38,506 nt of DNA from an uncultured Thiocystis sp. (GTDB lineage: Bacteria > Pseudomonadota > Gammaproteobacteria > Chromatiales > Chromatiaceae), in assembly GCF_903866365.1 (NCBI RefSeq), contig NZ_CAIPNF010000288.1, forward strand, positions 1 to 38,506, read 5' to 3'. The notes under the pieces were generated by a model. It made no database searches and was not told where the DNA came from. It saw nothing but the letters and a program-made list of their open reading frames with translations. Position numbers and translations under genes: made by a program. Position 1 is the first letter of the stretch. Each line of letters opens with the position of its first letter. Below are positions 6,875 to 33,182 of the stretch, one piece after another.

Positions 6875-6919
6875 ATACGGTTCGTGCCTCACCGACGTCT
6901 TGCGCGGGTGCGGTAGGGA

Positions 6920-7387
6920 TTACGCTATTGCAAATGTTGATGTTTCGCCGCGCATCAGCCGGTCGACCCAATCCAACATCTTTTCCATCGCCATCTCGCC
7001 GATCGGGGTCAGGCAATAATTAGAGTAGTCGAAGGAGTCGCCGCCGGCGGAGACCAGAAAACTCTCGGGCACGCGCCCGTAGAGGGTCTCGCACCAGGCC
7101 AAGAGTTCCCGCGGATCGAGAAAGTGGGCCATGGTCGAGAGGGCGTGGGCGTCGGGCGCGAGCCGCTGGCAGCGGACCTCGCCCGGTGCGGCATCCACGG
7201 CGGCATCGAGAAAGATCACCCGGTCCTGCTCCGCGATGTCGGCGACCAGCTCGGCGGTGAGGATATGACGTGACATCACCTCCACGCCCGCCGGAACCCC
7301 CGTGTTTTCCAGTCGGTCCGCAACCAGCGGACCGAGTGCGTCGTCGCCCCGGATGGGGCTGCCATAACCGATAATCAGAATCTTCAT
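6920..7387 (-). CDS. hoxW: NiFe-hydrogenase maturation protease (HoxW-like)
   Basis: 155 aa, of the HycI/HyaD/HoxW endopeptidase family. The N-terminus carries the signature GYGSPIRGDDALGP (nickel-sensing acidic residue and glycine loop), followed by VIFLDAAVDAAPGEV. These proteases remove the C-terminal extension of the large subunit once nickel is inserted. It starts 9 bp after hoxH, whose C-terminus has the cleavable extension, so HoxH is the expected substrate. The symbol is inferred from this position. It is the last gene of the operon. Confidence 0.88.
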   Translation of the reverse strand: MKILIIGYGSPIRGDDALGPLVADRLENTGVPAGVEVMSRHILTAELVADIAEQDRVIFLDAAVDAAPGEVRCQRLAPDAHALSTMAHFLDPRELLAWCETLYGRVPESFLVSAGGDSFDYSNYCLTPIGEMAMEKMLDWVDRLMRGETSTFAIA

Positions 7388-7396
7388 GGGCGGCGC

Positions 7397-8827
7397 TCAG
7401 GACCGGCTCAGGGTGTCGACGACCCGTCCGGCGGCGTCCTTGAGTTCGATCCGCAGCGGCATCTGACCGAAGGCGTGCGAGGCGCAGGACAGGCAGGGAT
7501 CGAAGCAGCGGATGACCGCCTCGACCCGGTTGAGCATGCCTTCCTGAAGGTTGTTGCCGTCGACATAGGCGTCCGCGACCTGCCGGATGGACTGGTTCAT
7601 GGCGAGGTTGTTGTGTCCGGTGGCGATGATCAGGTTGACCCAGGTGATGAGTCCCTCCTCGTCGATTCGATAATGATGGATCAGCGTGCCGCGCGGCGCC
7701 TCGGAGACACCGATGCCCTCGTCGCGGTTGCTGCGCGCCCGCGCCCGTACCCGATGATCGAGGATCGTCGGATCCTTCAGCAGGCGCTCCATCATCTCCA
7801 GCGCGTGGATGATCTCGACCAGCCGGGCGTAGTGGTAGTGGAAACTGCTGGCAATGGGGCCGGATTCCTCCTGAAGCATGTGGAACTCGGCGAGCGCGAC
7901 ATCCGCATAGGGCGTGCCGCATGCCTGCGCATTATTGAGTCGCGCCAGGGGTCCGACCCGATAGATCCCCTTGGGATAGCCCTGGGGCTTATAGTAGGGG
8001 AATTTCATGTAGCTAAAGTCCTCGACCGCCTCGCCGATTACCCGCTCATAGTCCTCGGGCGGCACCATGTCCTCGACGAGGCGGCCCTTGGCGTCCTTGA
8101 TGCGTAGCAGGCCGTCATAATGCTCGAAGTTGCCCTGGGGCGTGACCAGGCTCAGGAACATCGTCGGCAGACTGCCAAAGTGCGTCGCCTCGTCCTTGAA
8201 CTTGGGTACCAGGGTCTTGAAGAAATCATAGGTACGCCTGGCGATCTCCAGCCCCTCCGGGAGCAGCTTGAGCATGGCGTCGCGCTTTTCCAGGGTCAGC
8301 GGCTCGTTGACGCCGCCGGGCACCACCCAGGTGGGATGGATCTTCTTGCCGCCGAGGGTTTCGATGATGCTCTGACCGATCTGGCGCAGCCGGATGCCGT
8401 CCCTGGCGAGCGCGGGATCCTGACGCATGACGCCGAAGATGTTGCGCGTGGCCGGATCCGCGTCCCAGCCGAGCAGCAGGTCGGGCGAGGACAGGTGGAA
8501 AAAGGACAGGGCATGCGATTGGGTGAACTGGGCGAGATTCATGATCCGGCGCAGGTGTTCGCCGGTCGGCGGGATGCTGACCGAGAGCAGGTGGTCGCAC
8601 GCCTTGTTGGAGGCCAGCAGATGGCTGACCGGACAGATGCCGCAGGTGCGCGCGGTGAGCGCGGGCATTTCGCGGTAGGGGCGGCCCTCGCAGAATTTCT
8701 CGAAGCCGCGAAACTGAGTGAGATGGAAACGCGCGTCCTCGACCTCGCCCCCGTCGCCGAGTTGCAGGGTGATGCGGGCGTGGCCTTCGATGCGGGTGAC
8801 GGGTTCGATGGCGATGGTGCGGCTCAT
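7397..8827 (-). CDS. hoxH: Bidirectional NAD-linked NiFe hydrogenase large subunit
   Basis: 476 aa, carrying the NiFe(CN)2CO active site. The N-terminal metal ligands are in RTCGICPVSH and the C-terminal ones in DPCLSCASH. The latter is followed by a 25-residue tail (AFGQMPLRIELKD and on) expected to be removed by the maturation protease after the His. The start at 8827 gives the family N-terminus SRTIAIEPVTRIEGHARI. The longer open frame upstream is not conserved-looking. It is separated from its partner hoxY by about 4.6 kb of inserted genes. It starts 44 bp after the hicA stop, so its expression may depend on read-through of the insert or on a new promoter in it. Confidence 0.96.
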   Translation of the reverse strand: MSRTIAIEPVTRIEGHARITLQLGDGGEVEDARFHLTQFRGFEKFCEGRPYREMPALTARTCGICPVSHLLASNKACDHLLSVSIPPTGEHLRRIMNLAQFTQSHALSFFHLSSPDLLLGWDADPATRNIFGVMRQDPALARDGIRLRQIGQSIIETLGGKKIHPTWVVPGGVNEPLTLEKRDAMLKLLPEGLEIARRTYDFFKTLVPKFKDEATHFGSLPTMFLSLVTPQGNFEHYDGLLRIKDAKGRLVEDMVPPEDYERVIGEAVEDFSYMKFPYYKPQGYPKGIYRVGPLARLNNAQACGTPYADVALAEFHMLQEESGPIASSFHYHYARLVEIIHALEMMERLLKDPTILDHRVRARARSNRDEGIGVSEAPRGTLIHHYRIDEEGLITWVNLIIATGHNNLAMNQSIRQVADAYVDGNNLQEGMLNRVEAVIRCFDPCLSCASHAFGQMPLRIELKDAAGRVVDTLSRS

Positions 8828-8871
8828 GGCGGGAAATCCTGTCGGTTTGGGCTGACAATGGCGCGAGTGTT

Positions 8872-9102
8872 TCAGGTGCGTCGCGCCGTGATGAATTCTT
8901 CGAGAGAAACATCCGCTTGCTTGAGAATGCCGGCCAGGGTTCCGGGCTTGATTTCTCGATGATTTGGAACGACGCAACCAGATGACTGACGGCGCAATAC
9001 GAGATGGCTGCCACGTTGACGTACCACCACGAAACCCAATCGTTCCAATGCCCGGACTGCCTCCATCCCTGAGGTGATGGGCAATTTAGGCATATTCGGC
9101 AA
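8872..9102 (-). CDS. hicA: HicA-family toxin (YcfA-like mRNA interferase)
   Basis: 76 aa (or 73 from the second ATG). The dsRBD-like HicA pattern is clear: VRALERLGFVVVRQRGSHLV with the catalytic His in GSH, then VVPNHREIKPGTLAGILKQA. HicA toxins cut mRNA in the absence of HicB. The start overlaps the end of the hicB-like gene by 17 nt. The order hicB-hicA and the tight overlap support a functional pair. It is the last accessory gene before hoxH. Confidence 0.88.
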   Translation of the reverse strand: MPNMPKLPITSGMEAVRALERLGFVVVRQRGSHLVLRRQSSGCVVPNHREIKPGTLAGILKQADVSLEEFITARRT

Positions 9103-9292
9103 TCTCGAAGGTCGTGAGCAGCGGGCGGGCGACGATTTTCAACGGAAATTCTTCAAGATACAGCGCGGTTGCTTCGCGCAAATTCGCCAAGGCGTCTTCA
9201 ACGGTTTCGCCTTGCGTGGTCGTCCCCGTTTCAGGATTGAAGGCGATATATCCGCCTTCAGGCGCGGGGGTCAGAATTGCGGAGAGTTCCAT
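9086..9292 (-). CDS. hicB: HicB-family antitoxin, short form
   Basis: 68 aa with the partial RNase-H-like HicB fold: AILTPAPEGGYIAFNPETG, then GETVEDALANLREATALYLE. The protein lacks the C-terminal DNA-binding (ribbon-helix-helix or HTH) domain of long HicB antitoxins, so it may neutralise HicA without direct autorepression. ATG 9292 is chosen because it gives the family start; the frame is open to 9358 but that part is not HicB-like. It lies directly upstream of hicA. Confidence 0.85.
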   Translation of the reverse strand: MELSAILTPAPEGGYIAFNPETGTTTQGETVEDALANLREATALYLEEFPLKIVARPLLTTFEIAEYA

Positions 9293-9338
9293 GTGAGTTG
9301 ACCTGTCGTGAGGAGCGATACCGATCGGCGGGCTGGGC

Positions 9339-9369
9339 GTCACGCCTGTTTTATTCAAACAGGCGTGAC
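9339..9369. other. 13-bp perfect stem-loop between hsdS and hicB
   Basis: GTCACGCCTGTTT at 9339-9351 is the exact reverse complement of 9357-9369, around a 5-nt loop (TATTC). It lies in the 90-bp gap between the specificity subunit and hicB. There is no T tract after it on either strand, so it is not a textbook intrinsic terminator. It could slow transcription, protect an RNA 3' end, or mark a cassette border. Confidence 0.75.
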
Positions 9370-9382
9370 GGTTTCAGGAACT

Positions 9383-10819
9383 TCAGGCATCGGCGGGATC
9401 TCTTGTCGGATGCTTTCGCGATTCCAGATAAGCGAGCGCGGCGGCTTCGGAGTCTTCGATGGCGATTTCGACGGCGCGTTTGGCTGCGGCGAGGAGTTGG
9501 GTGGCGCGTTGTTTTTGCGCGTAACTTTGCTCTACGAACTGACGAATGTTTTTTTGTACGTCTACGGGGGGTAGCGATACGCGAAATTGCGCGATGTCAT
9601 TTGGATACAATTCAACTTGCCCAGATGAACCACGCAGACGCTGTTCGACCTGTGCTTGTCCGACTATCGAGTTCATAAACACCGACAAATAGACCGCATC
9701 CAATCCTTTTTTTGGACGTAGGATGGTGACGTGGTTATCCGGTACAGCTTTATCGTGATGCAGGTAAGTTGCCGAGCGACCTATCGTGCCAACGCCTGTG
9801 CCATTGACTAGCACGTCGCCGAATTGGATGAGCAAATCATCATCTCCGGCGACGGCACAGCGATTGTTAGCATCTAGCTGTACCACGCCGCGCAACACAT
9901 GCTTGGAGTTCACAACAGGAAGACCTTCATCCACGTAGTCAGGTTGTTTACCACGTTGGATTTTTATTAGCCAATCTCCCAGTAAAACGCCGCCAATTCG
10001 GTTTATTTGGTCTAGCAACGCCGCGAAACGAGGGTGAAAATGCTCCGCATCCAATCGTCCGGCGGCGAAAGCATCGCGGCTGTTACGGATATAGGTTAGG
10101 GCTTCGAGCGGTTGCCAGTTGTCCAAGCTGATGGCGCAAAGGAGAGTCGTTTCGGCCCGATGTAGCAATTCCCCTGACTGCAATTGATGTCTTTCCGATA
10201 GCGCGATAGTTTCCTGAATCTTTCGCTCAAATTCGGTGCCAAGTTTCGGGATTTCTAATTGTTCTATCTGCGACAGAAAAACGTGCTGCTGTACACTTCC
10301 GCGAGCCTCTCGCTTCAAATAATTCTGTCCAAAGCGCGACAACAAGAAAGCATATAAAATGAAAGGGTTGATTGCCTTTCGTACATCAATTTTGGCAATG
10401 TCTTGATTGGAATTGATGGGGTACGGCCAACTGTCTGTAGCAATGGCTACTTCGCCGATCGTTCCTGACATCGATAGAAGAACCATGCCCTCCTTAATTT
10501 CTGATTTCCAGAGAAGCGCATGGGCATCCTGGCTGATGTACAGCATGTTCGAGAAGTTCACGCGGCCACCTTTCATGTTTACACCGCGAATAAAGGGTAT
10601 GCCCGCATCAAGGTAGTGAACTTCGTTGTTCAGCGAGTACGCGCCAAAGGACCGAACTTCTGCTCCAGATTCCCTAAGTCGGCGGCTCCCTTTTACACGA
10701 AGGATCTTCTCCTCTTTCAAATATTGCTTTTGGAAGTAAATGCTATCGATACGGAAGATGTCGTTGTTCTTCTGCGTGTAACTTAACCTCACTTCCGCCG
10801 CCTCCAGCCCCTCCAACAA
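9383..10819 (-). CDS. hsdS: Type I-like restriction-modification specificity subunit
   Basis: About 478 aa with two target-recognition domains. The first ends in QHVFLSQIEQLEIPKLGTEF. The second holds ALLDQINRIGGVLLGDWLIK and NDIAQFRVSLPPVDVQKNIR. Helical spacers follow each. HsdS-type subunits read the bipartite DNA target and present it to the methyltransferase. The start is uncertain. The only usual start codon at the N-terminus is TTG 10819, without a visible ribosome-binding site. The frame is open to 10885 and encodes FDAARYARLLEGLEAAEV, which looks like the true start of such subunits. That section overlaps the end of the upstream gene across a run of seven T (see findings). The gene is more AT-rich than its surroundings, suggesting recent transfer. 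Confidence 0.85.
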   Translation of the reverse strand: MLEGLEAAEVRLSYTQKNNDIFRIDSIYFQKQYLKEEKILRVKGSRRLRESGAEVRSFGAYSLNNEVHYLDAGIPFIRGVNMKGGRVNFSNMLYISQDAHALLWKSEIKEGMVLLSMSGTIGEVAIATDSWPYPINSNQDIAKIDVRKAINPFILYAFLLSRFGQNYLKREARGSVQQHVFLSQIEQLEIPKLGTEFERKIQETIALSERHQLQSGELLHRAETTLLCAISLDNWQPLEALTYIRNSRDAFAAGRLDAEHFHPRFAALLDQINRIGGVLLGDWLIKIQRGKQPDYVDEGLPVVNSKHVLRGVVQLDANNRCAVAGDDDLLIQFGDVLVNGTGVGTIGRSATYLHHDKAVPDNHVTILRPKKGLDAVYLSVFMNSIVGQAQVEQRLRGSSGQVELYPNDIAQFRVSLPPVDVQKNIRQFVEQSYAQKQRATQLLAAAKRAVEIAIEDSEAAALAYLESRKHPTRDPADA

Positions 10820-10848
10820 CCGCGCATAGCGCGCCGCGTCAAAGGGGC

Positions 10849-13002
10849 CTAGCGAAAAAAACCGAAGCCCTCTTTTTTCGCAAACTCAATAAACGCCTCG
10901 GCGATGCCTTCCTCGGTCAATCCGTCATGGTTGAACAGATCATGCCTGACGATCAAATGCCCGTGAGCGTCGAGCAGCGGGCTACCGTCGGGCGCGGAGC
11001 GATAAATCTTGTCACCGGAGGTGTCCTTGCTCGGCTCGCGCATGGTGGCAAAAAAGATCGGATAGTCGTCCTGTTTGGGGCAGATTGGCCCGGCATTCGG
11101 GTCGTCGTTCCATTTCTGCACAAAAAGCACGCTGGTCTTGGTGCCGGTGTGCGGCTTGAAGACGTTGCCGTGCAGCCCGACCACCGCCAGGAGGCGGCAA
11201 TGCTCGGCGAGATATTCGCGCAGATTCTTATCGGAGGCGTTGTTGAAGCGCCCCTGCGGCAACACCACCGCCATGCGTCCGCCCGGCTTGAGGAAACTCA
11301 GATTGCGCTCGATAAACAGGATGTCGCGCCCGACGGTGTTTTGATGCTTGAGCTTGGTCTTGCGGTAGCTGCCATCGGCCAGCTTGTAAATGACCTCGTG
11401 GCTGGCGCTCAGGGCTTCGGGAAAGGTGGGCGCGCGATCCGTCGCATTGACGATGTTAGGGTCTTGCGAATCGACCTTGCTGATTTTTTCCAGACTGACC
11501 GAGCGCGCCAGATCGTACTTGGCGAGGATGCGCGTCTCTTTGATGTCGCCCGCGAAGGGCGGATTGGCCATCAGGATGTCAAAGCCGAAATCGCGGTTGC
11601 TGGTCTTGTCGCGGCGTAGTTTGCGCAGTCGTTTCCAGCCCTCGCCGTAAACGTCGGTCCAGTTCTCGTCGCCGGTCTTCTCGTCCCAACGTTCGTAGTC
11701 CAGGGTGTTGAGATGCAGGACGTTGGTCTGACCGTCGCCCGCGATCAGGTTCAGGGTACGCCCGACCCGCACCGCCTTTTCGTCAAAGTCGATGGCGAAA
11801 ACCTTGTCGCGCACATAGTCCTCGCAACGGGCGGGCTTTTTCTCGGTGGTGAAGAGATGGCTTTTGCTCAAGCCTTCCGCCTTTATGATCTGTTCCCAGA
11901 CATGAAAGATGGCATGCACCGGAAAGCCGCAACTGCCCGCCGCCGTGTCGATTAGGGTTTCCTGCTCCTGCGGATTGAGCATCTTTACGCAGAGATCGAT
12001 CACATAACGCGGGGTGAAGTATTGACCTTTTTCGCCCTTGCTGGATTTGTTGATGAGATATTCAAACGCCTCATCGACGACTTCGAGATTAGAGTTGAAC
12101 AGCTTGACGCCCTCCAGCGAGGCCACGCACACCGCTAGATGGCTGGGGGTCAGATCGATCCGCGCGCCCTCCGGGAAGACGCCTTCCCATTTCGCCCGCG
12201 CCTTGTCGAATAGATCCTGGATCTTGGCCTTCAGTTCGGTCTCGGTGTCGCCGTAGTTTTTGAAGACCAGATGGCGCTTGCAATCGCGGTCGCGGTCGCG
12301 CCCACCTTCCCATTCGTCATAAAGCTTGGTGAAGATGAGTTTGAACAATTCCTCGAAGACATCGACGCCGGCATTGGCCAGCACCTCGTCTTCCATTTCA
12401 AGGATCTTATCCCGGAGCGATTTTTTCTCGGCGACGAGCTTGTCCAGTCGGATGAGATCGTCGATCGTCCAGCGTTCGGCGAGGACATCCGACAGCTTCT
12501 CGTGGGCCGTGGGAATTCGGGGGATGTCCTCGAAATAATTGGGATCCTTGCGGTGATACTGCGAAATCTGCTCGCCGTTGGTCCAGACGCCCATCGGCGC
12601 GCCGCTAGCATTGCAGTAGCTCTTGAGCTGATCTTTGCCGTCCTTGAGCTTGGGTTTCTTCAGTTCGACGAGGATGTAGGGCGCGGTGGTCTTGTCCTTG
12701 TCGAAGAGACAGATGTCAGCGCGCTTCTTCTCGCGCCCGAAACTGATTTCATACTCGACCGCCATCCGGCTGACGGGATAGCCGAAATCGTCGCGCAGCA
12801 CCAGGATGTAAAGCTGGCGGACGGCTTCCTCGGGCGTGAGCTTGATCGGCTTGCCGCGTACCAGATAGGTGACGTAGGGAACCGATTTGCCTCCCGAATC
12901 CTTCAGCGTGATGGACGCTTCCAGCGTTTTGATGTGCTCGGGCCGAAACTGGCTGAATGTGTAGGCGCTGTCTTTCAGCAGTTCGGCGAGGGTAATGGTC
13001 AT
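10849..13002 (-). CDS. Fused PD-(D/E)XK nuclease / N6-adenine DNA methyltransferase
   Basis: 717 aa. The N-terminal domain resembles the nuclease domain of HsdR (HSDR_N type): D96 in RADICLF and E113-x-K115 in LVELKKPK fit a PD-(D/E)XK site, with a Gln at 125. The C-terminal two thirds is an HsdM-like methyltransferase: GQYFTPR (327-333), SAM motif DTAAGSCGF (352-360) and catalytic NPPF (480-483). There is no helicase/translocase, and no separate hsdR gene lies in the window. A nuclease-methyltransferase polypeptide with a separate specificity subunit is the architecture of BcgI-type (type IIB/IIG) systems. The start ATG 13002 is the family start. The gene ends with a T7 run just before its stop, overlapping the open frame of the specificity subunit. 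Confidence 0.88.
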   Translation of the reverse strand: MTITLAELLKDSAYTFSQFRPEHIKTLEASITLKDSGGKSVPYVTYLVRGKPIKLTPEEAVRQLYILVLRDDFGYPVSRMAVEYEISFGREKKRADICLFDKDKTTAPYILVELKKPKLKDGKDQLKSYCNASGAPMGVWTNGEQISQYHRKDPNYFEDIPRIPTAHEKLSDVLAERWTIDDLIRLDKLVAEKKSLRDKILEMEDEVLANAGVDVFEELFKLIFTKLYDEWEGGRDRDRDCKRHLVFKNYGDTETELKAKIQDLFDKARAKWEGVFPEGARIDLTPSHLAVCVASLEGVKLFNSNLEVVDEAFEYLINKSSKGEKGQYFTPRYVIDLCVKMLNPQEQETLIDTAAGSCGFPVHAIFHVWEQIIKAEGLSKSHLFTTEKKPARCEDYVRDKVFAIDFDEKAVRVGRTLNLIAGDGQTNVLHLNTLDYERWDEKTGDENWTDVYGEGWKRLRKLRRDKTSNRDFGFDILMANPPFAGDIKETRILAKYDLARSVSLEKISKVDSQDPNIVNATDRAPTFPEALSASHEVIYKLADGSYRKTKLKHQNTVGRDILFIERNLSFLKPGGRMAVVLPQGRFNNASDKNLREYLAEHCRLLAVVGLHGNVFKPHTGTKTSVLFVQKWNDDPNAGPICPKQDDYPIFFATMREPSKDTSGDKIYRSAPDGSPLLDAHGHLIVRHDLFNHDGLTEEGIAEAFIEFAKKEGFGFFR

Positions 13003-15815: not shown

Positions 15816-17426
15816 TCAACCACCCGCCAGTTTCTCCTCATACTCATCACGAAAATACCGCAACGTGCTCAACACCGGATTGGGCGCCGTCTGACCCAGC
15901 CCGCAGAGACTGGTGGCCTGGACCACTTCGCAGAGTTCTTCCAAGAGGGCAAGATCCGCGTGGGTACCCTGTCCCCTGGCGATCTTGTCCAGCAGACCGT
16001 GCATCTGCTGCGTCCCGGCGCGGCAGGGAATGCACTTGCCGCACGACTCGGTCATGCAGAATTCCATGAAATAGCGTGCGACATCGACCATGCAGGAGGT
16101 CTCGTCGATGACGATCATGCCGCCGGAGCCCATCATGGTGCCCAGCGTTTTGAGACTGTCGTAATCGACCGCAATATCCAGATGTTGTTCCGGGATGCAG
16201 CCGCCGGACGGGCCGCCGGTTTGGACCGCCTTGAACGCCTTGCCATCGGGAATGCCGCCGCCGATGATCTCGATGATGTCGCGCAGGCTGGTGCCCATGG
16301 GCACCTCGATCAAACCGGTGTTCTGGATCTTGCCCGCCAGCGCAAACACCTTGGTGCCCTTGGATTTCTCGGTGCCGATGCCGGCGAACCAGTCGCCCCC
16401 GTTGCGGATGATGGGGGCGATATTGGCGAAGCTCTCGACATTGTTGATCAGGGTCGGGCAGCCCCAGAGACCGGACTCGGCGGGGTAGGGCGGACGCGGG
16501 CGCGGCTGGCCGCGCAGACCCTCAATGGAGGCCATGAGCGCCGTCTCCTCGCCGCAGACGAAGGCGCCGGCGCCCAGACGGATCTCGACCTCGAAGCTGA
16601 ATTGCGTATCCGCGACCTTGCTGCCCAGAAAACCCGCGCGCTTGGCCTTGCGGATGGCGGTCTGCAACCGCTCCACGGCCAGCGGATATTCGGCGCGGAC
16701 ATAGACATACGCCTTGTTGGCGCCGATGGCATAGGCGGCGATCGCCATGCCTTCGAGCACCCGATGCGGGTCGGACTCCAGGACCGCGCGATCCATGAAG
16801 GCGCCCGGATCGCCCTCGTCGGCGTTGCAGATGACATATTTCTGAACGCCGGGGGTTTTGGCCACGGTCGACCATTTGAGTCCGGTCGGATAGCCGCCGC
16901 CGCCGCGTCCGCGCAGACCGCTGGCGGTAACCTCGCGCAGCACATCGGCGGGCGTCATCTCGCTCAGCGCCTGGACCAGCGCCGCGTAACCGCCCACGGC
17001 GACATAGCCCTTGAAGCTGTCGGGGTCGATGATCCCGGAGTTTTCCAGCACGATCTTCTGCTGACGCGCAAAAAAGGGCTGGTCGGTCGGGCAGCGCAGG
17101 CGTTCCACCGGCGCGCCGCAGACGCTCCCCAGGATGTCGGGCGCGTCGGCGGGGGTCACGTCGCGATAGAGAACTGAATCAGCCAGACCGCAGTCCTTGT
17201 CCGCCACAGCGACCAGGGGACCGGCGGAGCACAGCCCCATGCAGCCGACCCCTTTGACTCGGCAGGAACCGCCGCCGTCTCCGCAGGCGTTCGTGAGCGC
17301 CTCCAGGACTGGCAGGGAGCCGGATGACTGACAACTGGCCGCCACGCAGACGCGAACCTCGCGCCGGACGGCGGCCTCCTCGGCGCGGTATTCCGCAGCC
17401 TTTTCGGCAAGATCTTCCAGGTGCAT
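15816..17426 (-). CDS. hoxF: Hydrogenase diaphorase flavoprotein subunit
   Basis: 536 aa. The N-terminal thioredoxin-like [2Fe-2S] domain is marked by [11 protein letters not shown] and [12 protein letters not shown]. The FMN/NADH-binding core follows, with [28 protein letters not shown] and [14 protein letters not shown]. The C-terminal [4Fe-4S] motif is [13 protein letters not shown], with a distal Cys in TSLCGLGQ. It is homologous to NuoF and oxidises or reduces NAD(H) for the hydrogenase. The start lies 1 bp after the hoxE stop. The stop is followed within 16 bp by the inserted toxin-like ORF, so the insert sits almost flush with the gene end. All key residues are intact. Confidence 0.96.
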
Positions 17427-17427
17427 G

Positions 17428-17922
17428 TCAGTCCAGCGCCTCCAATTTGGCGATCAGGGTATCGGGGGCCAGCTTGCCCAACACATTGCCATCCAGAACC
17501 ACCGCCGGCGCGAGACCGCAGGCGCCGACACAGCGCGCGGTGAGCACGGATAGCCGATCATCCTCGGTGGTGTCGCCGGGATTGATCCCATGGCGTTCCT
17601 GGATCCCTTCCAGAAGTGCTCCAGCCCCCTTGATATAGCAGGCGGTGCCGGTACAGACCACGCAGGCATGCCGGCCCTTCGGCTTGAGCATGAAGATATG
17701 ATAGAAGGTCGCGACGCCATAGACCTTGCTCAAGGGCTGATCGAGCGAGGCGGCGACGAAGCGCAGCGCGGTCTCGTCGAGAAACCCGAAGGCGTCCTGC
17801 ACGCTGTGCAGGGTTTCGATGAGCGCGTGGTCCGCGTACCCGTTGCGACGCATGGTGGCGTTGACGAGTTTCCAGCGTTTGTCATCGCTGGGCAACGGCG
17901 GCTTGGCTTGTTGCTGGGTCAT
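17428..17922 (-). CDS. hoxE: Hydrogenase diaphorase subunit HoxE, NuoE-like
   Basis: 164 aa with a helical N-terminal part and a thioredoxin-like [2Fe-2S] domain. The four cysteines are in [12 protein letters not shown] and [15 protein letters not shown]. HoxE occurs in the pentameric HoxEFUYH enzymes of cyanobacteria and purple sulfur bacteria, as an extra electron-transfer subunit. It is the first gene of the operon, preceded by a strong AAAGGAGG ribosome-binding site 4 nt from ATG 17922. Confidence 0.95.
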
Positions 17923-24522: not shown

Positions 24523-25554
24523 ATGTCGGATCGGAATGAAAGGTTGCGAAACTGGCTGGCAACTCAGTTCAATGGCGAGTCATTCGAACTCGCGCCCGCC
24601 TCGTCGGATGCGAGCTTTCGGCGCTATTGGCGGGTGAGTCATGCCGCCGGAACCCTGATCGCCATGGATGCGCCACCGGCGTTCGAGGATTGCGGTCGCT
24701 TCGCCGATCTCTCTGGGCGCTTTCGTGCCATCGGCGTCAATACCCCTGAGATCCACGCGGAGGATCGTGCCCAGGGTTTTCTGTTGATCGCCGATCTCGG
24801 AGACCGCGTCTATCTGAGCCAGCTTGACGCCAACAATGCCGACCGTCTGTATGGCGATGCCCTGGGCGCGCTGGCGGTCATTCAGGCTTGCGGACCGCTC
24901 GATGGCCTGCCGTTTTACGATGCCTCGTTTTTACACCGTGAACTCGATCTGTTTCATGAATGGTTTCTGCGGAAACAGCTTGGCCTGAGTCTCAGCGTAG
25001 AGGAGCTGTCGACGCTCGCTCAGGCCAATGAGTTTCTGGTTGCCAGCGCCCTGGAGCAGCCGCAGGTCTGCGTGCACCGTGATTTCCACTCCCGTAACCT
25101 GATGCTGACCGACACGGCAAACCCTGGGGTTCTGGATTTTCAGGACGCGGTGATCGGTCCGGTCACCTACGATCCGGTCTCGCTGCTTCGGGATTGTTAC
25201 ATCGCCTGGCCCGTGGAGCGAGTTGCTGACTGGGCGCTGGGTTATTGTCAGCTTGCCATTCAGTCGGGAGTCTTGCGCCAGGATGACGCCGAACGCTTCC
25301 CGCGCTGGTTCGACCTCATGGGGACTCAACGGCACCTGAAGGCGTGCGGGATCTTTGCGCGCTTGAATCTCCGCGACGGCAAACCGCACTATCTGGGCGA
25401 TATTCCCCGAACCCTTGAATATGTGATCGAGGTGACGGGTAAATACGGCGAACTAGACGAGTTTTGCCGATTTCTGTCGGCGCGGGTCTTGCCTCTGACC
25501 CAGGAAAACTCTGTCAGCCACTCGCGGTCAACGTCACGCGCCGTTCTTCGATGA
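24523..25554 (+). CDS. amgK: N-acetylmuramate/N-acetylglucosamine-1-kinase AmgK-like phosphotransferase
   Basis: 343 aa of the aminoglycoside phosphotransferase fold. The catalytic loop is VCVHRDFHSRNLML and the metal-binding motif is VLDFQDAVIGP. The N-terminus has SSDASFRRYWRV and the glycine-rich ATP loop region. AmgK phosphorylates MurNAc and GlcNAc at the anomeric carbon in the cell-wall recycling route of pseudomonads and relatives. The divergent position next to lptD is typical. The usual partner murU (nucleotidyltransferase) does not follow. Instead the last 21 nt overlap a convergent gene. ATG 24523 is preferred over GTG 24514. The tail after LPLTQEN looks unlike the family and may be a recent extension. 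Confidence 0.85.
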   Translation: MSDRNERLRNWLATQFNGESFELAPASSDASFRRYWRVSHAAGTLIAMDAPPAFEDCGRFADLSGRFRAIGVNTPEIHAEDRAQGFLLIADLGDRVYLSQLDANNADRLYGDALGALAVIQACGPLDGLPFYDASFLHRELDLFHEWFLRKQLGLSLSVEELSTLAQANEFLVASALEQPQVCVHRDFHSRNLMLTDTANPGVLDFQDAVIGPVTYDPVSLLRDCYIAWPVERVADWALGYCQLAIQSGVLRQDDAERFPRWFDLMGTQRHLKACGIFARLNLRDGKPHYLGDIPRTLEYVIEVTGKYGELDEFCRFLSARVLPLTQENSVSHSRSTSRAVLR

Positions 25555-26388
25555 CGACGGGGAATCGAAAAGATCGGCGAGTCCTTCCAGCTCCTCCCAC
25601 GCAAGTGCCTCATCGGAGTCGTTAGGGTCGCTGTCGCCGGATGGACGGATTGGTTTTTGCGCACCGTCGGCGATCGATTCCGGGGCGGTCTTCTCAGGTT
25701 TGGATGCTGTGAATGGCATCTCCGCGAGGGTGTCCGCGATCTCGAACTCGTGCTGGTCAGCAAGTTCTTCTGACCGGACGTCGAAAATGTCCTGGTCCAT
25801 GTCCGTGGTTTCTTCCTCGATCACGATATCCGCGATGGATTCGTCTGGCGGAGCCGCATGAGGCGATGCTGACTCGGGCGGTTGCTGGGATCGGTTGAAG
25901 GCGGCCGAATATTCGCTCATCAATTCATCCAGGGTCTGTTTCGTGCTTTCCAGTTCCGCCGCGAGTTCTGCCTTTTCGCTTTCGAGATGACCGATGTCAC
26001 CCGTCGGCAACCGTCCGCTGGGCGTCAGGGTCGTCCAGGGGCTCAGCACCTTGGCCAACTCCGCTGGAATGTCCTTCAGTTTTGCGCCATCCCGTTCCAG
26101 ATAGAGACTCAGCATCGCGTTGTAAAAGGCCTTCTCGCGCGCGACATACTCATCGACCTTCGCCTCCAATTCCTCGCCTTCCATCTGATAATTCGATTGG
26201 AACAGGGTCGTCAAGGCATCGCGTCGTGAGATCTCGGTCTTATCAAGTTTTTCGATCACGGCGCCGACATGCACCTGATCCGAGTTAAATTGCTTGCGTT
26301 GTCGACGCAGCAGGAAAAATAGAATCGCCCATGCCACCAGGGCGAATTCGGTGGCCAGAACCAGGCTGCCAAGTTCGAGTGCGCTCAT
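25534..26388 (-). CDS. One-TM acidic protein paired with the VWA protein
   Basis: 284 aa, not recognised as a named family. Residues ~4-26 form a single membrane segment (LELGSLVLATEFALVAWAIL) followed by a basic RRQRKQF stop-transfer, so most of the protein should face the cytoplasm. Next come a helical region (YVAREKAFYNAMLSLYLERD), a coiled coil (LESEKAELAAELESTKQTLD), and a long acidic low-complexity C-terminus. Its ATG overlaps the stop of the VWA gene by 4 nt, so the two are coupled and probably act together in the inner membrane. The gene end overlaps convergent amgK. Confidence 0.75.
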   Translation of the reverse strand: MSALELGSLVLATEFALVAWAILFFLLRRQRKQFNSDQVHVGAVIEKLDKTEISRRDALTTLFQSNYQMEGEELEAKVDEYVAREKAFYNAMLSLYLERDGAKLKDIPAELAKVLSPWTTLTPSGRLPTGDIGHLESEKAELAAELESTKQTLDELMSEYSAAFNRSQQPPESASPHAAPPDESIADIVIEEETTDMDQDIFDVRSEELADQHEFEIADTLAEMPFTASKPEKTAPESIADGAQKPIRPSGDSDPNDSDEALAWEELEGLADLFDSPSSSKNGA

Positions 26389-28238
26389 GCTGAATTCACC
26401 CTTGCCTGTCGCGCCGGATCGATCGCGGCGCTTTTCGTCGAGCGACGCAGTAACCACCAAGTCAGGCCGAGCATCAAGCCAAGAATAGCGTTACCGACGA
26501 GCAGATACAGGCTGAATTCGATCCATGACAGCCCTTCGGAGGAATCAGATGTTTTGTCATGACGATTCGCGCCGGCCGGCGCGGCAAACTCGAAGACGAA
26601 TGGTCTGGGCTCCAGATCGAAATCGATCGCCTCGCCGGTCAAGGTGCGTGCCAGCAGCCGGCCATGAAGTTGGAATTCGCCGGGCCGTTCAACAGGAAGG
26701 GACAGGGCCAGGGGAAAGATCGTCGGTTTTGGAACGTCAACGACGGTCTTGCGTCCCTCGGGATCCTGTAGGAGCAGGTAGCCGGACACCGTGCTCGGAT
26801 CGATCAGATCGGGCTCGATCGTCAGGGTCGCCATGAGCGCCGCGACCGGCGACGCGTCCGATGGAAGCTGTTCTTGATAGGCGATCGTAAAAGGCGGGCC
26901 CGCGAGGTGCAAACGCTTCGATGTCTGTCGTTTGAAGGTGCCGCCGTCCAGCACGACGTTCAACTGATAGAGACCTGGAACGAGCGATTTTGTCTCAAAT
27001 TGACTCCGGTAGCGACCGCTTTCCTGATCGAGAACCAACGTGACCTCAACCCCGTTCGCACTGTCCTGGGGCTCCGGCACCTGTTCCGGCGGTGGTTCTT
27101 CGCCGTGCCGAGAGGGCGTTTGTGCCCCGCCATCGTCACCCGGACGCGGACTCTCGGAAATCGGCGTCAGGGTGGCGCTGGCGGTCAGTAACCGCAGGAA
27201 ATCGCTGCGCGTGACGGGTTGTTGGTGGTCGGTCAGCCAGACTTCGAGGCGGAGCGTCTCGCCGTGCCGGAGCGTGTTCGGGAGCGGGGCAAGCTCGATC
27301 CCCAGATCGGTCACGACCACCACCCGGTTATCCGGATCGGTGGCGCCCTGAAGTTCCCATTGGCCGGGTTTGGGCTGGGCCAGGGTCACCAGGTCATAAC
27401 CGGACTCCTTGCGCCAGGTTACCCCCGCCGAGGGTTTGTTAGCCGAAATCAGGTCGCCGGCAGGCGAGATCAGTTGGGTCGCTCCTTCTGCGCCACGGAA
27501 CGCCAGCAGGGTAAATTCGGAAACCCGCGCGTCGATCTCGAACCGGTTGCCTTCCAGTGGGACCGTTGTCGGCGCCGCGGTTTGCTCCAGCATGCGCAGA
27601 AAAACGCGCTGCAGCGCGTCCGCGTCCTTGGGGGATTCCAGCCAGCCGTCGGTCTGCGTGGTCAGGAGGCGCAGGAGCTCGGCATCGACCTCGTCCGACA
27701 GGGCGATGGCATGAACCTTGACGTTGAGGGTCTTGAGCTGTTCGATCTGGGTGGAGACGATGCGCGCGCGCGAGGCGGCACTCTGGTCCGCGTCCTTGGA
27801 GACGTCGACCAGGCCATCGGTCAGCAGAACGAGGTGGCGCTCGCTGTCCGCGGTCGGCGTCTCCCAGCCCGCGACGGCCGCCGTGATGGCCTGTTCGATG
27901 TCGGTGAACAGGCCGCGCGAATGGATGTGTTCGAGTCGGGCGCGGGTGCGGGTCTTCCATTGATCATCGACCGGTCCGGGCGGCGCCAGGATTTCGGTTT
28001 TCTCGGCAAAGAGCCAGACACCCGCGCGGGCGCCTTCCGGCAGGAGTTCGTTGACCAGTCGCAGCGCCGGAATTCGCAGGTTTTGCGGGTCGTTCCGCTT
28101 CATGCTGCCGGAGACATCGATCAGGATTCGCACCTCCGGCGTGGCGGCGACCAGCGTGCCGGCGGTTGTCAACAGGGCCAGCAACAGGGCCGCAAGCAAG
28201 CGCCCGGGGATCCGGGGAGGGGTCGGATGGTGCATCAT
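26385..28238 (-). CDS. Membrane-anchored von Willebrand factor A domain protein
   Basis: 617 aa. A signal peptide (LLAALLLALLTTAGTLVAA) is followed at once by a VWA domain with the metal-site motif DVSGSM (residues 41-46), then LFTDIEQAI and LVLLTDGLVDVS. The middle is beta-rich, with repeated Ig-like stretches such as KSLVPGLYQLNVVLDGGTFK and a Pro/Glu-rich linker. A C-terminal membrane helix (LLVGNAILGLMLGLTWWLL) ends in basic RRSTKS. The bulk is therefore periplasmic, anchored in the inner membrane. The layout recalls the TIGR03503-type VWA proteins, but I cannot confirm that. The metal-binding residues look intact. It overlaps the one-TM gene by 4 nt. The 94-bp gap to the kinase gene upstream has no clear signal. 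Confidence 0.82.
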   Translation of the reverse strand: MMHHPTPPRIPGRLLAALLLALLTTAGTLVAATPEVRILIDVSGSMKRNDPQNLRIPALRLVNELLPEGARAGVWLFAEKTEILAPPGPVDDQWKTRTRARLEHIHSRGLFTDIEQAITAAVAGWETPTADSERHLVLLTDGLVDVSKDADQSAASRARIVSTQIEQLKTLNVKVHAIALSDEVDAELLRLLTTQTDGWLESPKDADALQRVFLRMLEQTAAPTTVPLEGNRFEIDARVSEFTLLAFRGAEGATQLISPAGDLISANKPSAGVTWRKESGYDLVTLAQPKPGQWELQGATDPDNRVVVVTDLGIELAPLPNTLRHGETLRLEVWLTDHQQPVTRSDFLRLLTASATLTPISESPRPGDDGGAQTPSRHGEEPPPEQVPEPQDSANGVEVTLVLDQESGRYRSQFETKSLVPGLYQLNVVLDGGTFKRQTSKRLHLAGPPFTIAYQEQLPSDASPVAALMATLTIEPDLIDPSTVSGYLLLQDPEGRKTVVDVPKPTIFPLALSLPVERPGEFQLHGRLLARTLTGEAIDFDLEPRPFVFEFAAPAGANRHDKTSDSSEGLSWIEFSLYLLVGNAILGLMLGLTWWLLRRSTKSAAIDPARQARVNSA

Positions 28239-28332
28239 GTCGAGGGTGACGGCCGCGTGCGGCAACGCTGGAGTCTTGCGCAAGACCTCGGGCGGCAAGG
28301 GAGAGCGACGGTTGACAATGTCGTGCGCGGCA

Positions 28333-29019
28333 TCACGGCAGCCACAACTCGAAACAGCCGCCCGTCAGGGTGTGACCGTTGGCGAGTCGTATCCGCCCGG
28401 TGCGTTCAGGCGTCTTGTGCATCTGGGCGATGCGGGCCGCGAAGTAAAGCCCCAACCGTGTCCTTGAGGGATCGCTCGTGGGATCGGTCAAATTTCGCGC
28501 TGGCTCGTTGTCATCGGGAAGCCATTGAGGCAGCTTGCCTGGAAAGCCCGAACCGTCGTCTTCCACGCGAATGACCAGGTAGTCGTCGACTGTCTCGGCG
28601 CTCAGCAGAATGCGTTCGCGGGCATAGCGGCGAGCGTTTCCGATCGTGCTATTGAGGACGCCATGGATCAGGTCCGTGTCGAAATAGCCGATCAAGTCGG
28701 GATCGCTGGTCGCGCTCAGATCGAGGTTCAGTGCCTGGCAGAGCGCCTGATTCTCGGCGACGACCTCGTCGAGGAATTCGTCGAGATTCTGTTCGGCGAT
28801 CCGCGCGACCAGTTCTGCGGTCCCCAGCTTATAGAGATTCAGCAATTGAATCAGGTTGCTGTTGGCCCGTTGCGCCTCGTGCTGCAAGAGGCTGGCTTGT
28901 CGCGGATTGGCGAGATGGTTAGCGGGATTGGCGATCAGTTCGTCAAGATCGTTCAGGATCAACCCGAGCGAGTTTTTGATGTCGTGGATGGAAGAGGCAA
29001 GGATGTCGGAGAAGTCCAT
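28333..29019 (-). CDS. Short sensor-less histidine kinase
   Basis: 228 aa. The H-box is almost at the N-terminus (SSIHDIKNSLGLILND, His12). The ATPase domain has an N-box (NSTIGNARRYARE), a G1 box (VEDDGSGFPGKLP) and a G2 region (RTRLGLYFAARIAQMH). No sensor, HAMP or membrane segment is present, so it must receive its signal through a partner and is probably cytosolic. It starts 12 bp after the receiver-TPR gene and is the obvious candidate partner for it. A phosphatase role or a CheA-like scaffold role is also possible. Confidence 0.85.
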   Translation of the reverse strand: MDFSDILASSIHDIKNSLGLILNDLDELIANPANHLANPRQASLLQHEAQRANSNLIQLLNLYKLGTAELVARIAEQNLDEFLDEVVAENQALCQALNLDLSATSDPDLIGYFDTDLIHGVLNSTIGNARRYARERILLSAETVDDYLVIRVEDDGSGFPGKLPQWLPDDNEPARNLTDPTSDPSRTRLGLYFAARIAQMHKTPERTGRIRLANGHTLTGGCFELWLP

Positions 29020-29031
29020 GATGTCGTGCCA

Positions 29032-30645
29032 CTAGACCTTGGGAGCGAGAGTGCGCAGGCGGGAGATGACGTCGTTGAGCCGCCAGTCGTTGGGGGCCAG
29101 CGCATGAACCCGCCCAATATAGCGGCGGACGAGCTGGATGTCTTCGTTGGTGGTGCCCAGTTTTTCCATCTTCATGATGCTGGCCTTGGCTGCGTTCAGG
29201 TTGATGGTTTTGTTGCCCGGCATGTCCTCGGCGGCTTCGTGCAGGAGTTCCAGGGCGGCATCGAATTCGCCTTGTTTGATGAGGCGCACACCCAGATTGT
29301 TGGTTTTGACGACATCTTGCTGGATCTCGCGAATGGCCGTCTCGGTGTCATACTCAACGCCGGCCTCGCGGCAGGCTTGCACGACGTTCATGAGGAACTC
29401 CTCGTCGTCATGGTTGTTGGCGATGGCCTTTTGCAACAGCGCGGCCGCTTTGTCCTGCTCGCCCAACTGCGCGTAGGTCTTCACCATTTCAAGACTGAGT
29501 GTGGCGTGCGACGCCTCGCCGAAGCGCGCTATGGCCGCTTCGGCGGTTTGCAACGCCTCCAGCGCGCCTTCCCGATCGCCTTGCTGTTGTTTCACTGTCG
29601 CCGTTGCGGTCGCCTTGTAGAAGGTCGCTTCGGGCGTGTTCGAAAACACCTTGCCGATCTCGCCGATGACCTTCAACGCCTCGACGTGTTTGTTGTTCGA
29701 TGACTTGGATCGCGCCAGGTTGGCAAACAGCGAGGGATGGTTCAAGACCGAGTGTTTGGCCAGCGTCACGGCGTGACCGAAGGCGATCTCCGCCTCCTGC
29801 GAATTCCCATTGCTCAGCGCCAGTTCGCCGAGCATTTGCTGGCGTTTCAGGCCGCGCGGCGAGAGTTTGACAGCGGAGCGGACGGTCTCTTCGGCCTCGG
29901 CGAACTGCTGCAGGGCGGTCTGGGTTCTGGCGAGCCAGTCACTGGCCGCGATCAGGTTGGGATCGAGCGCGATCAGTTGCCTGAACATCTCCTGGGCCTT
30001 GGCATAGTGTTTTTTTAAGTACAGAACCTTGCCCATCCCGAGGCGCGCCCAGGCGATCTCGCGCGCGGCCAGCACCTGCTCATAGACCGTCATGGCCTCG
30101 TCGTAGCGGTTTGCCGCGAGACAAATCTCCGTTTTGAGCTTGAGCAGATCCGCGAGGTTTTTGGGCGAGGCGGCGATCAATTGGTCCAGTTCGCCGATGG
30201 CGGTGCCATAGTCCTTAGCCACCAGCGCCTTGTTGACCGGAGCCAGATGGGCCTTGCGTTCGAAAAGCTTGTCGAGACGGTTTTTCAGCAGTTCCTTGGT
30301 GAACGGCTTGGACAGATAACTGTCGGGCGCGTATTCCGCCGCGCTCATGACCATCTCGCGCGTGTTTTCGGCCGTGACCATGATAAAGATGCAGTCGATC
30401 CCTATCAGCTGACGATGCCGCGCTTCCTCCAGTACCTGTTGGCCGTCCTTGCCTGGCCCCAGGTTGTAGTCGCATAACACGACATCGAACCGCTTTTTCG
30501 CCATCTGCGCGATGGCGTCATTCCCGTCACGGGCCTGATCGATATGATTGACGCCGAGCGAGCGCAGAATACTTCGGATCGCCGCGCGCATATCGCTGAA
30601 GTCGTCGATGACCAGGCACTGTTTTTGGGAAAATTCTTCTGCCAT
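29032..30645 (-). CDS. Response regulator with receiver domain and TPR array
   Basis: 537 aa. The receiver domain (residues ~8-130) has the acidic pocket in CLVIDDFSDMRAAI, phospho-acceptor Asp in VVLCDYNLGPGKDG, Thr in MVTAEN and Lys in SYLSKPF. It is followed by about ten TPR-like helical hairpins (for example YDEAMTVYEQVLAAREIAWA and YAKAQEMFRQLIALDPN) to the C-terminus. There is no DNA-binding or enzymatic output domain, so the output is presumably protein binding through the TPRs. It is the first gene of the group with the kinase, VWA and one-TM proteins. ATG 30645 is clear. The 81 bp to the purD stop hold its promoter, which I could not define. Confidence 0.88.
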   Translation of the reverse strand: MAEEFSQKQCLVIDDFSDMRAAIRSILRSLGVNHIDQARDGNDAIAQMAKKRFDVVLCDYNLGPGKDGQQVLEEARHRQLIGIDCIFIMVTAENTREMVMSAAEYAPDSYLSKPFTKELLKNRLDKLFERKAHLAPVNKALVAKDYGTAIGELDQLIAASPKNLADLLKLKTEICLAANRYDEAMTVYEQVLAAREIAWARLGMGKVLYLKKHYAKAQEMFRQLIALDPNLIAASDWLARTQTALQQFAEAEETVRSAVKLSPRGLKRQQMLGELALSNGNSQEAEIAFGHAVTLAKHSVLNHPSLFANLARSKSSNNKHVEALKVIGEIGKVFSNTPEATFYKATATATVKQQQGDREGALEALQTAEAAIARFGEASHATLSLEMVKTYAQLGEQDKAAALLQKAIANNHDDEEFLMNVVQACREAGVEYDTETAIREIQQDVVKTNNLGVRLIKQGEFDAALELLHEAAEDMPGNKTINLNAAKASIMKMEKLGTTNEDIQLVRRYIGRVHALAPNDWRLNDVISRLRTLAPKV

Positions 30646-30726: not shown

Positions 30727-32037
30727 TCAAGAAACTTCGCGCGCTGGCGGCTGGTTTGTCTCGCGCGCAATGGCGCGGTAACCGATGTCGCGCCGGCAAT
30801 AGCAGTCATCCCAACGCAGGCGATCGACCCCCCGATAGGCCAGCCGCTGCGCCGCCGACACGCTGTCGCCCAGCGCCGTCACGCAGAGCACGCGCCCGCC
30901 GTTGGTCACCATGGCGTTGCCATCCAGGCGGGTGCCGGCGTGAAAGACCTTGGCCTCGCTGGGCGGTACCTCATCCAGTCCGGCAATCGTGTGTCCGACC
31001 GCATAGCGATCCGGATAGCCGCCAGCCGCCAGTACCACGCCCACCGCGGGGCGAGGATCCCACACGGCCGTCGACTCGTCGAGCCGGCCCGCGAGCGCGC
31101 TCAGACAGAGCCCGACCAGATCCGATTGCAGACGCATCAGCAGCGGCTGGGTCTCGGGATCGCCCAGCCGACAATTGAACTCCAGCACCCTGGGCGTGCC
31201 GTCGGCGCCGATCATGAGGCCGGCGTAGAGGAAGCCCCGATAGCGGATCCCCTCGGCGGCCAGTCCGTCGGCGGTCGGTTGCATGACCTCGCGCAGGATA
31301 CGCTCATGGATCTCGGAGGTAACGATCGGCGCCGGCGAATAGGCGCCCATGCCGCCGGTATTGGGGCCGCGGTCGCCATCATCCCGTGCTTTGTGATCCT
31401 GGGAGGTGGCCAGCGGAAGGATATCGCGACCGTCGACCATGGCGATGAAGCTGGCCTCCTCGCCGGTCAGGAATTCCTCGATCACCACCCGCGCGCCGGC
31501 CAGACCGAAACGGCCCGCGCCCAACATGTCGCGCACCGCAGTCTCGGCGGTGGCCAGATCCTCGGCGAGGATGACGCCCTTGCCCGCCGCCAGTCCGTCG
31601 GCCTTGACCACGATCGGCGCGCCGACCTGGCACAGATAGGCCAGCGCGGGTTCCAGTTCGGTAAAGGCGCCATAGGCCGCCGTGGGGATGGCGTGGCGGG
31701 CGAGGAAATCCTTGGCGAAGGTCTTCGAGCCTTCGAGTCGAGCGGCCTCCCGGCGCGGACCGAAGCAAGGCAGCCCGGCGGCCTCGAAGGCATCGACGAG
31801 GCCCGCGACGAGCGGCGCCTCGGGGCCGACGATGGTCAGGCCGATCGCCTGCTCGGTGGCGAAATGCAGCAGCGCGGGGATGTCGTCGGCGGCGATCGGC
31901 AGGTTCTCCACGCCGGGTTCGCGGGCGGTTCCGCCGTTACCGGGGGCGACGAAGACCCGGTCCGCCAGGGGTGACTGCGCGACCTTCCAGGCCAGCGCGT
32001 GCTCGCGTCCGCCGTTGCCGACGATCAGAATGTTCAT
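30727..32037 (-). CDS. purD: Phosphoribosylamine-glycine ligase
   Basis: 436 aa ATP-grasp enzyme making glycinamide ribonucleotide in purine synthesis. The N-terminus [20 protein letters not shown] is diagnostic. Others are [54 protein letters not shown] and [20 protein letters not shown]. The family usually follows purH directly. Here a broken Uma2 gene and an LpxA homologue intervene. ATG 32037 gives the family start; the four codons upstream are not conserved. Confidence 0.96.
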
Positions 32038-32055
32038 GGTTGGTCTCATGCGATT

Positions 32056-32317: not shown

Positions 32318-33094
32318 TTAAGCGAACGAAATCAAACCGCGCCGGCTGGACTGGATGAATTGCACGATCTGTTCGGTCTCCGGTCCGGGGTACTCGTGTT
32401 CGGCGCGGACCAGTGCCTCGGCCAGTCGTAGACCGGAGCGGAACACCAGACGATAGACTTCCTTGATCCGTTTGCGCTGTTCCGGGCTGAAACCGTTACG
32501 TCGGAGGCCAACGACATTCAACCCAAGGATTCTGGCGCGATGACCGTCGGCCAGGGCGAAGGGCGGCACGTCCTGAGCCACCCCGGTGACGCCGGCTACC
32601 ATGGCATAGGAGCCGATGCGGCAAAACTGATGCACGGCGACCTGACCGGACAGGAAAACGCGATCGCCGACCTCGACGTGTCCGGCCAAGGTGGCCGAGT
32701 TGGCGAAGATGTTGCGGTTCCCAACGACGCAGTCATGGCCCGCGTGCGAAAAGGTCATCCAGTAATTGTCGTGGCCGATGCGTGTCCCTTCCTCGGACTT
32801 GATGCCGCAACTGATGTTGACCCCTTCCTTGAAGTGATTGCGGTCGCCGATGACGAGCGGACGGGCTTTCTCGGGCGTGAAACTGAGATCCTGCGGTTCG
32901 GATCCGAGTGTCGCGCCATGGCAGACGCGGTTCTCCGCCCCCATGCGGGTGTTGGCATAGATGCGCGCGCAGCTTTCGATGACGCAGCCCTCGCCAAGGA
33001 CCGCGCCGGCCTCGACGATCGAATAGGGGCCGACGCGCACGCTCTCGTGCAGTTCGGCGCCGTCCTCGATGATCGCGGTTGGATGAATGCGCAT
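32318..33094 (-). CDS. lpxA: UDP-N-acetylglucosamine acyltransferase (LpxA family)
   Basis: 258 aa left-handed beta-helix acyltransferase. The hexapeptide repeats start [20 protein letters not shown]. The catalytic His is in [12 protein letters not shown], followed by [28 protein letters not shown] and [15 protein letters not shown]. LpxA adds the first acyl chain to UDP-GlcNAc in lipid A synthesis. The insert-side sequence [18 protein letters not shown] differs from the usual ESVTIHRGT form, so it may be a paralogue. It is not in the usual lpxD-fabZ-lpxA-lpxB cluster. The start ATG 33094 has no Shine-Dalgarno; an upstream ATG at 33124 is in frame. Confidence 0.85.
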
Positions 33095-33182
33095 TAAACC
33101 GCGTCCGTCATGGTCTGCACGCATGGTGCATTGAATGGGGCTTGCGTCAGTCCATGGGCGTCGGCGCTGACGTGGTTTAAGT
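33094..33182. repeat. 89-bp element with imperfect 12-bp inverted ends, upstream of lpxA
   Basis: The left end TTAAACCGCGTC (33094-33105) and the right end GACGTGGTTTAA (33171-33182) are inverted repeats with one mismatch. The left end is part of the fourth copy of the 25-bp dispersed motif (33095-33119). The remaining ~110 bp to purH show nothing else recognisable. It could be a small non-coding mobile element or part of an RNA leader. Confidence 0.5.
33095..33119 (+). repeat. 25-bp dispersed motif, copy 4 (upstream of lpxA)
   Basis: TAAACCGCGTCCGTCATGGT continuing CTGCA. It has the same first 12 bases as the copy 14 bp upstream of lptD, in the same orientation relative to the downstream gene. 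It begins immediately next to the lpxA start codon. Confidence 0.6.

Follow-up and report, generated by a model that had tools for sequence, protein, structure and literature searches.

The window analysed here, i.e., a whole stretch of 38,506 nucleotides (contig NZ_CAIPNF010000288.1) from an uncultured Thiocystis sp., carries on its minus strand a row of four intact genes, which encode a receiver protein with tetratricopeptide repeats (receiver-TPR protein), a small histidine kinase, a von Willebrand factor A (VWA) protein and a protein with a single transmembrane segment (one-TM protein). These genes correspond to two modules rather than to one four-part system: the modules are close together in only four of the 29 sampled genomes of the class in which both were found. 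In the reading that we tentatively prefer (probability of about 0.38), two separable modules have been joined in one row in a clade of Chromatiaceae (purple sulfur bacteria), where the membrane pair (VWA and one-TM proteins) would optionally serve the soluble pair (kinase and receiver-TPR protein) as a scaffold or an input at the envelope, with docking through a short motif, LxDLF, at the tail end of the one-TM protein. The features concerned, with the evidence on which each was assigned, are as follows (lengths in amino acids, aa; AF2, AlphaFold2).

29032..30645, minus strand: receiver-TPR gene, 537 aa (Pfam, PDB sequence search, AF2 model, alignment)
28333..29019, minus strand: histidine kinase gene, 228 aa (Pfam, NCBIfam, PDB sequence search, alignment)
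26385..28238, minus strand: VWA gene (Pfam, NCBIfam, alignment, AF2, fold search)
25534..26388, minus strand: one-TM gene (alignment; matches no Pfam or NCBIfam family)
25567..25593, minus strand: codons of ELEGLADLF, a tail motif that, among the compared proteins, was seen in the linked Chromatiaceae clade alone

Pairing, Linkage and Co-Occurrence of the Two Modules

A scan of named genomes for the kinase yielded at least 573 relatives, the best 80 loci of which were kept. The receiver-TPR gene adjoins the kinase gene in all of these 80 best loci, and it is present in 18 of 19 further chosen kinase loci. Because of this recurrent adjacency, the kinase and the receiver-TPR protein are likely a cognate pair, between which phosphotransfer would take place. 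The membrane pair, for its part, can exist without the kinase pair, since a match to the one-TM profile was retained in 19 of 20 genomes sampled from the 76 genomes of the class that are VWA-positive and kinase-negative.

Among 54 relatives, 19 genomes have a family-level kinase match, and all 19 have a VWA gene: kinase and VWA genes are linked in 13 of them and apart in five, the last one (G040) having kinase, receiver and VWA each on a separate short contig. Twelve of the 13 linked relatives have a one-TM match, and G023 has an HD-type gene past the VWA gene instead. Eight more relatives possess a VWA gene without the kinase, and two a paralogue-like VWA gene only. For these counts, six relatives (G030, G033, G034, G039, G042 and G044) with kinase E-values of about 1e-7 to 1e-10 were left out, as their matches were taken as generic kinases, and the VWA matches of G039 and G042, which look paralogous, were not considered as orthologues. 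Moreover, a whole-genome VWA search, which took 36 of the 72 loci L105–L176, recovered a VWA gene in 35 of 36 genomes with the kinase pair, beside the pair itself in two (L161 and L170).

Across 370 sampled genomes of the class, the kinase was detected in 42 and the VWA gene in 105, with 29 genomes holding both, 13 the kinase only and 76 the VWA gene only. The VWA gene is thus found in 29/42 genomes with the kinase vs. 76/328 without it (Fisher p = 6e-9), and the same association is observed by families (Fisher p = 1.8e-4; 161 families in total, as read from the highest family number) and within the host's family (18/18 kinase-bearing genomes vs. 5/15 others, p = 3e-5), all three tests ignoring kinship. 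The four genomes with both modules within a few kilobases are G000, G067, G091 and G209; in two of the 29 (G119 and G273), the kinase is at a contig end, so that its neighbourhood is cut there.

Where the modules are linked, two opposite gene orders are observed. The first (receiver-kinase-VWA) belongs to one Chromatiaceae clade of 15 rows, with an SH-aLRT support of 100 in the receiver-TPR tree, and the second (VWA-TM-receiver-kinase) is that of L161, L170 and L208; in L207, the VWA gene directly precedes the receiver gene and there is no separate one-TM match. In the receiver-TPR tree, the two orders fall into distinct regions. The initial annotation of this DNA had read the four genes as one system and had called for a gene-neighbourhood survey, in which independent occurrence of the two gene pairs in most genomes would speak against it; as this survey found the two pairs apart in most genomes, the single four-gene system is weakened, though the co-occurrence of the modules and their linkage in two orders remain in its favour.

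The Soluble Pair

In the receiver-TPR protein, Pfam identifies a Response_reg domain (E = 1.9e-19) and TPR_19 (E = 6.3e-23). The AF2 model (mean pLDDT of 91.6; 79–97 in the block past the receiver) features a CheY-like receiver (residues 1–130), followed by about eleven TPR-type pairs, i.e., 22 helices (residues 135–536), the helices being predicted up to residue 536 of 537. Top sequence matches among solved structures (PDB sequence search) are CheY proteins, while Foldseek on the model returned TPR superhelices and CheY. The receiver residues D14, D15, D59 and K113, i.e., the acids of the pocket with the phospho-acceptor aspartate and the lysine, are unchanged in 31/31 aligned proteins, and position 91 is either T or S. 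No DNA-binding or enzyme output domain was found with Pfam or in the AF2 model.

The sole Pfam domain above cut-off in the 228-aa kinase is HATPase_c (E = 3.2e-7). Pfam found no sensor input domain, for which there is no space either, given that the histidine of the H-box is already residue 12. This H-box is of the form H-D-x-K-N, the N, G1 and G2 boxes are intact, and the residues H12, D13, N16, N128, D154, G156, G158 and G190 are unchanged in 19/19 aligned proteins. In HisKA kinases, the H-D-x-x-N form permits both kinase and phosphatase activity; the small kinase can probably both phosphorylate and dephosphorylate. Its nearest named relatives are from Thiobaca, Chromatium, Marichromatium and Thiorhodococcus, in agreement with a Chromatiaceae-like host.

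The Membrane Pair

The VWA domain of the third protein is recognized by Pfam (E = 5.2e-10), and its metal-ion-dependent adhesion site (MIDAS) residues D41, S43, S45, T112 and D141, counted from the likely start at ATG 28238, are unchanged in 28/28 aligned proteins. The protein begins with what by sequence resembles an export signal, has strand-rich domains past the VWA domain and ends in a hydrophobic helix; its AF2 model has a pLDDT of 84.3, and the fold search gave general VWA and multi-domain matches. The NCBIfam model TIGR03503 matches residues 245–572 (E = 2.7e-31) with 108.8 bits, below the cut-off of 305.6, which makes the protein, on this score, a distant TIGR03503 relative outside of the curated family. 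Four relatives tested likewise match TIGR03503.

A paralogous VWA gene (27–33% identical) occurs in the loci L067–L074, among them L071 of the same genome (G000:C450; positions 6387–8893, minus strand). It is accompanied by a distinct partner of about 314 aa, which in L071 has no Pfam match, and a seryl-tRNA synthetase gene, assigned by Pfam in L071 and by BLAST cluster elsewhere, lies nearby in 6/8 loci. In another set of loci (L193–L202 and L204–L207), the VWA proteins bear a long acidic tail past their own last hydrophobic helix, and there is no separate one-TM match within the short stretch covered; it looks as if the acidic tail had been transferred onto the VWA protein.

The one-TM protein consists of an N-terminal hydrophobic segment, a conserved helical part and an acidic tail. 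No Pfam or NCBIfam family was matched, no second member turned up in the genome, and no repeats were found in its gene. In the linked Chromatiaceae clade, the tail is fast-changing and hardly alignable apart from LxDLF, which is found near its end in 15/15 aligned proteins, compared to 0/10 aligned one-TM proteins from other loci, one of which (L053) ends at a contig edge. Degenerate DNA for ELEGLADLF has a single exact occurrence in the genome, at this locus. Other lineages retain different short tail motifs (GSLEDEWAKLLEE, DEFGLEDFDLSD and AEIPxDLL, by eye); selection thus seems to act on the end of the tail.

Layout of the Locus

On the minus strand, the order of the genes is purH, an LpxA-like gene, purD, receiver-TPR, kinase, VWA and one-TM, beyond which come the convergent amgK, then lptD-surA-pdxA. 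The closest upstream neighbour is the following.

30727..32049, minus strand: purD (Pfam GARS_N/A/C), 81 bases upstream of the receiver-TPR gene

The subsequent gaps are of 12 bases (receiver-TPR/kinase) and 94 bases (kinase/VWA), while the VWA stop and the one-TM start share an ATGA overlap and the one-TM gene runs about 20 bases into the convergent amgK. Where the stretch reaches that far, purD is a neighbour in most of the linked loci from Chromatiaceae. From this spacing and the shared strand, the genes are likely part of a single transcription unit, larger than the four genes and extending to the purD side; promoter-like matches were not above shuffles and terminator-like matches were below them.

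As for gene starts, the likely VWA start is ATG 28238 (617 aa) rather than 28298, where the open reading frame opens, and the likely one-TM start is ATG 26388 (284 aa) rather than 26460. With these two corrections, the description given in the initial annotation, with a sensor-less kinase, a receiver devoid of classical output and an intact VWA metal site, is accurate.

Two other features of the window can be mentioned. In the purH/purD interval (32318–33124, minus strand), Pfam identifies an LpxA-like UDP-GlcNAc O-acyltransferase gene, which occupies the same place in several relatives. Further away (15816–17922, minus strand) are HoxE/HoxF-like bidirectional hydrogenase genes, HoxE exceeding its NCBIfam cut-off.

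A Possible Link between the Modules and Its Alternatives

Under the preferred reading, the first module would be composed of a cytoplasmic sensor-less kinase and its cognate receiver-TPR protein, the output of which would be protein binding. The second would be an inner-membrane pair, in which an anchored periplasmic VWA protein is associated with a one-TM partner whose acidic tail, according to the topology that we infer, would extend into the cytoplasm. The membrane pair may then serve the first module as an envelope-facing scaffold or input: the conserved LxDLF tail end would dock on the receiver or on the TPR superhelix, the envelope state would bias phosphorylation of the receiver, and the TPR domain would in turn hold or release a client protein. 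The LxDLF motif presumably resembles the CheY-docking peptides of CheZ and FliM.

Several observations weigh against this reading. The modules were not seen together in 25 of the 29 class genomes holding both, and numerous genomes have one without the other (13 with the kinase only, among which the strict thresholds may have missed distant VWA forms, and 76 with the VWA gene only). Among the best 80 kinase loci, the VWA gene is inside the fetched stretch in 10, many of the other 70 ending at contig edges. In a linked row from a Thiorhodovibrio metagenome-assembled genome (MAG; L050/L103), no one-TM match was found, and one kinase locus (L226) is without a receiver-TPR neighbour. Regarding the tail, LxDLF marks a single clade and is missing from L161 and L170, which have the opposite order, so that it is confounded with descent; moreover, GSLEDEWAKLLEE is retained in L058, from a genome (G026) without a detected kinase pair. 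Furthermore, the length of the acidic tail, taken after a coiled-coil landmark, shows no difference between presence and absence of the kinase (p = 0.28), and tail docking as a general rule was dropped on this ground. This test, in which the landmark was found in 44/66 rows (33/41 kinase-positive, 11/25 kinase-negative) and the other 22 rows were excluded, is crude: two landmark matches look spurious (L063 and L228) and several genomes appear twice. Finally, the co-occurrence counts ignore descent; when corrected for it, the pairs test has 4–5 supported pairs only (median p = 0.25, with no contrary pairs), and the three changes on the tree could amount to one gain and two losses.

An alternative that is nearly as probable is that the row is a neighbourhood without partnership, in which widespread gammaproteobacterial modules were parked behind purD in Chromatiaceae, linkage being due to rearrangement and co-occurrence to shared ancestry. 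In its favour are the unlinked modules in most of the genomes holding both and the p-value of the corrected test; the Chromatiaceae linkage, which concerns a single clade, counts as one event only, and elsewhere the VWA pair adjoins genes for a lipid A acyltransferase, a rhodanese, RmuC and SoxY. It is less at ease with the opposite-order linkage in a different lineage (L161, L170 and L208, along with L207, where a separate one-TM match is missing), with the lack of contrary pairs in the descent-corrected test and with the strict association of the VWA gene with the kinase in the host's family, even if that last comparison leaves kinship aside.

A stronger form of the link appears unlikely to us. 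It would make the row a split two-component system with the sensor outside of the kinase, in which the VWA and one-TM proteins read the envelope and the LxDLF tail signals to the soluble kinase and to a receiver-TPR protein capturing other proteins, possibly enzymes of cyclic diguanylate (c-di-GMP) metabolism.

The least probable of the explanations considered is that the receiver-TPR protein and the kinase act like VieB (see below), as a modulator of hybrid kinases and c-di-GMP enzymes, the VWA and one-TM proteins being an unrelated envelope pair. This role stays alive because of the other neighbours of the receiver-TPR gene, which also speak against the preferred reading: a gene for a GGDEF protein with a DGC coil in Sedimenticola (L108) and, in some loci, HD-GYP-type or hybrid kinase genes. 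In the genome of the window itself, two more receiver-TPR genes (55–57% identical to the locus protein) flank an HD-type gene with DUF3391 (HD-GYP-type) in L214 (G000:C344:17000-35000; 6680–11546, minus strand), where no small kinase match was found. In Marinobacter (L117 and other loci), a VC_2705 symporter gene and a 1174-aa hybrid kinase gene with PAS_7 precede the receiver-TPR/kinase pair. An HD-domain gene (HD_5, HD-GYP-type) is located directly past the VWA gene in the Thiorhodovibrio MAG (L103:4096-6541 and L050), which hints at a c-di-GMP connection at the end of the row. Yet, such neighbours vary by lineage, unlike the small kinase, which hardly ever changes, and the repeated VWA linkage is left unexplained. 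In L214, a 7TMR-DISM gene with a HATPase domain also lies near the genes mentioned above.

If the preferred reading is true, it would provide a signalling role for the TIGR03503-like periplasmic VWA family, of unknown function and present in 105 of the 370 sampled class genomes, as well as a route for controlling sensor-less kinases from outside the cytoplasm. Link or not, the small kinase, found in 42 of these 370 genomes, and its receiver-TPR neighbour stand as a unit of their own.

Comparison with Known Systems

This unit was not found described in the literature searched, to which subscription papers are mostly external: no term for a TPR-containing response regulator, such as receiver-TPR, REC-TPR or CheY-TPR, was met, nor was TIGR03503 named, and no locus combining a VWA protein, a response regulator and a kinase was among the matches listed. 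Two candidates were set aside. PA2572 of Pseudomonas aeruginosa, at first considered as a receiver-TPR protein, was dropped as a homologue, being probably an HD-GYP protein, while RcbAB of Vibrio vulnificus was dropped after a term search of the text gave no receiver, histidine kinase or VWA.

Like classical HisKA/HATPase two-component systems, the locus has an intact H-box, intact N, G1 and G2 boxes and intact receiver acids; unlike them, its kinase is without a sensor and no DNA-binding or enzymatic output was found on its regulator. The 1174-aa hybrid kinase of Marinobacter, which by its architecture and neighbouring symporter looks like an acetate-switch kinase of the CrbS/MxtR type (SLC5 hybrid kinases), is a neighbour in that genus only, and there is none at this locus. 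As for TIGR03503, NCBIfam classes it as a hypothetical equivalog, and the VWA protein matches it over part of its length, below the curated cut-off.

Another close system is VieB, from the VieSAB system of Vibrio cholerae. According to its description (PMC4352251), VieB is composed of a receiver with a conserved aspartate followed by TPR, without a DNA-binding domain, and it binds and inhibits the kinase VieS; the operon includes a regulator with c-di-GMP phosphodiesterase activity, and the C-terminal half of VieB is presented as being without known homology. Likened by description only, the locus protein similarly has a receiver, then TPR, and no helix-turn-helix. In contrast to this account of VieB, its TPR-type helices reach the C-terminus in the AF2 model, and where the partner of VieB is the hybrid sensor kinase VieS, that of the locus receiver-TPR protein would be a small soluble kinase.

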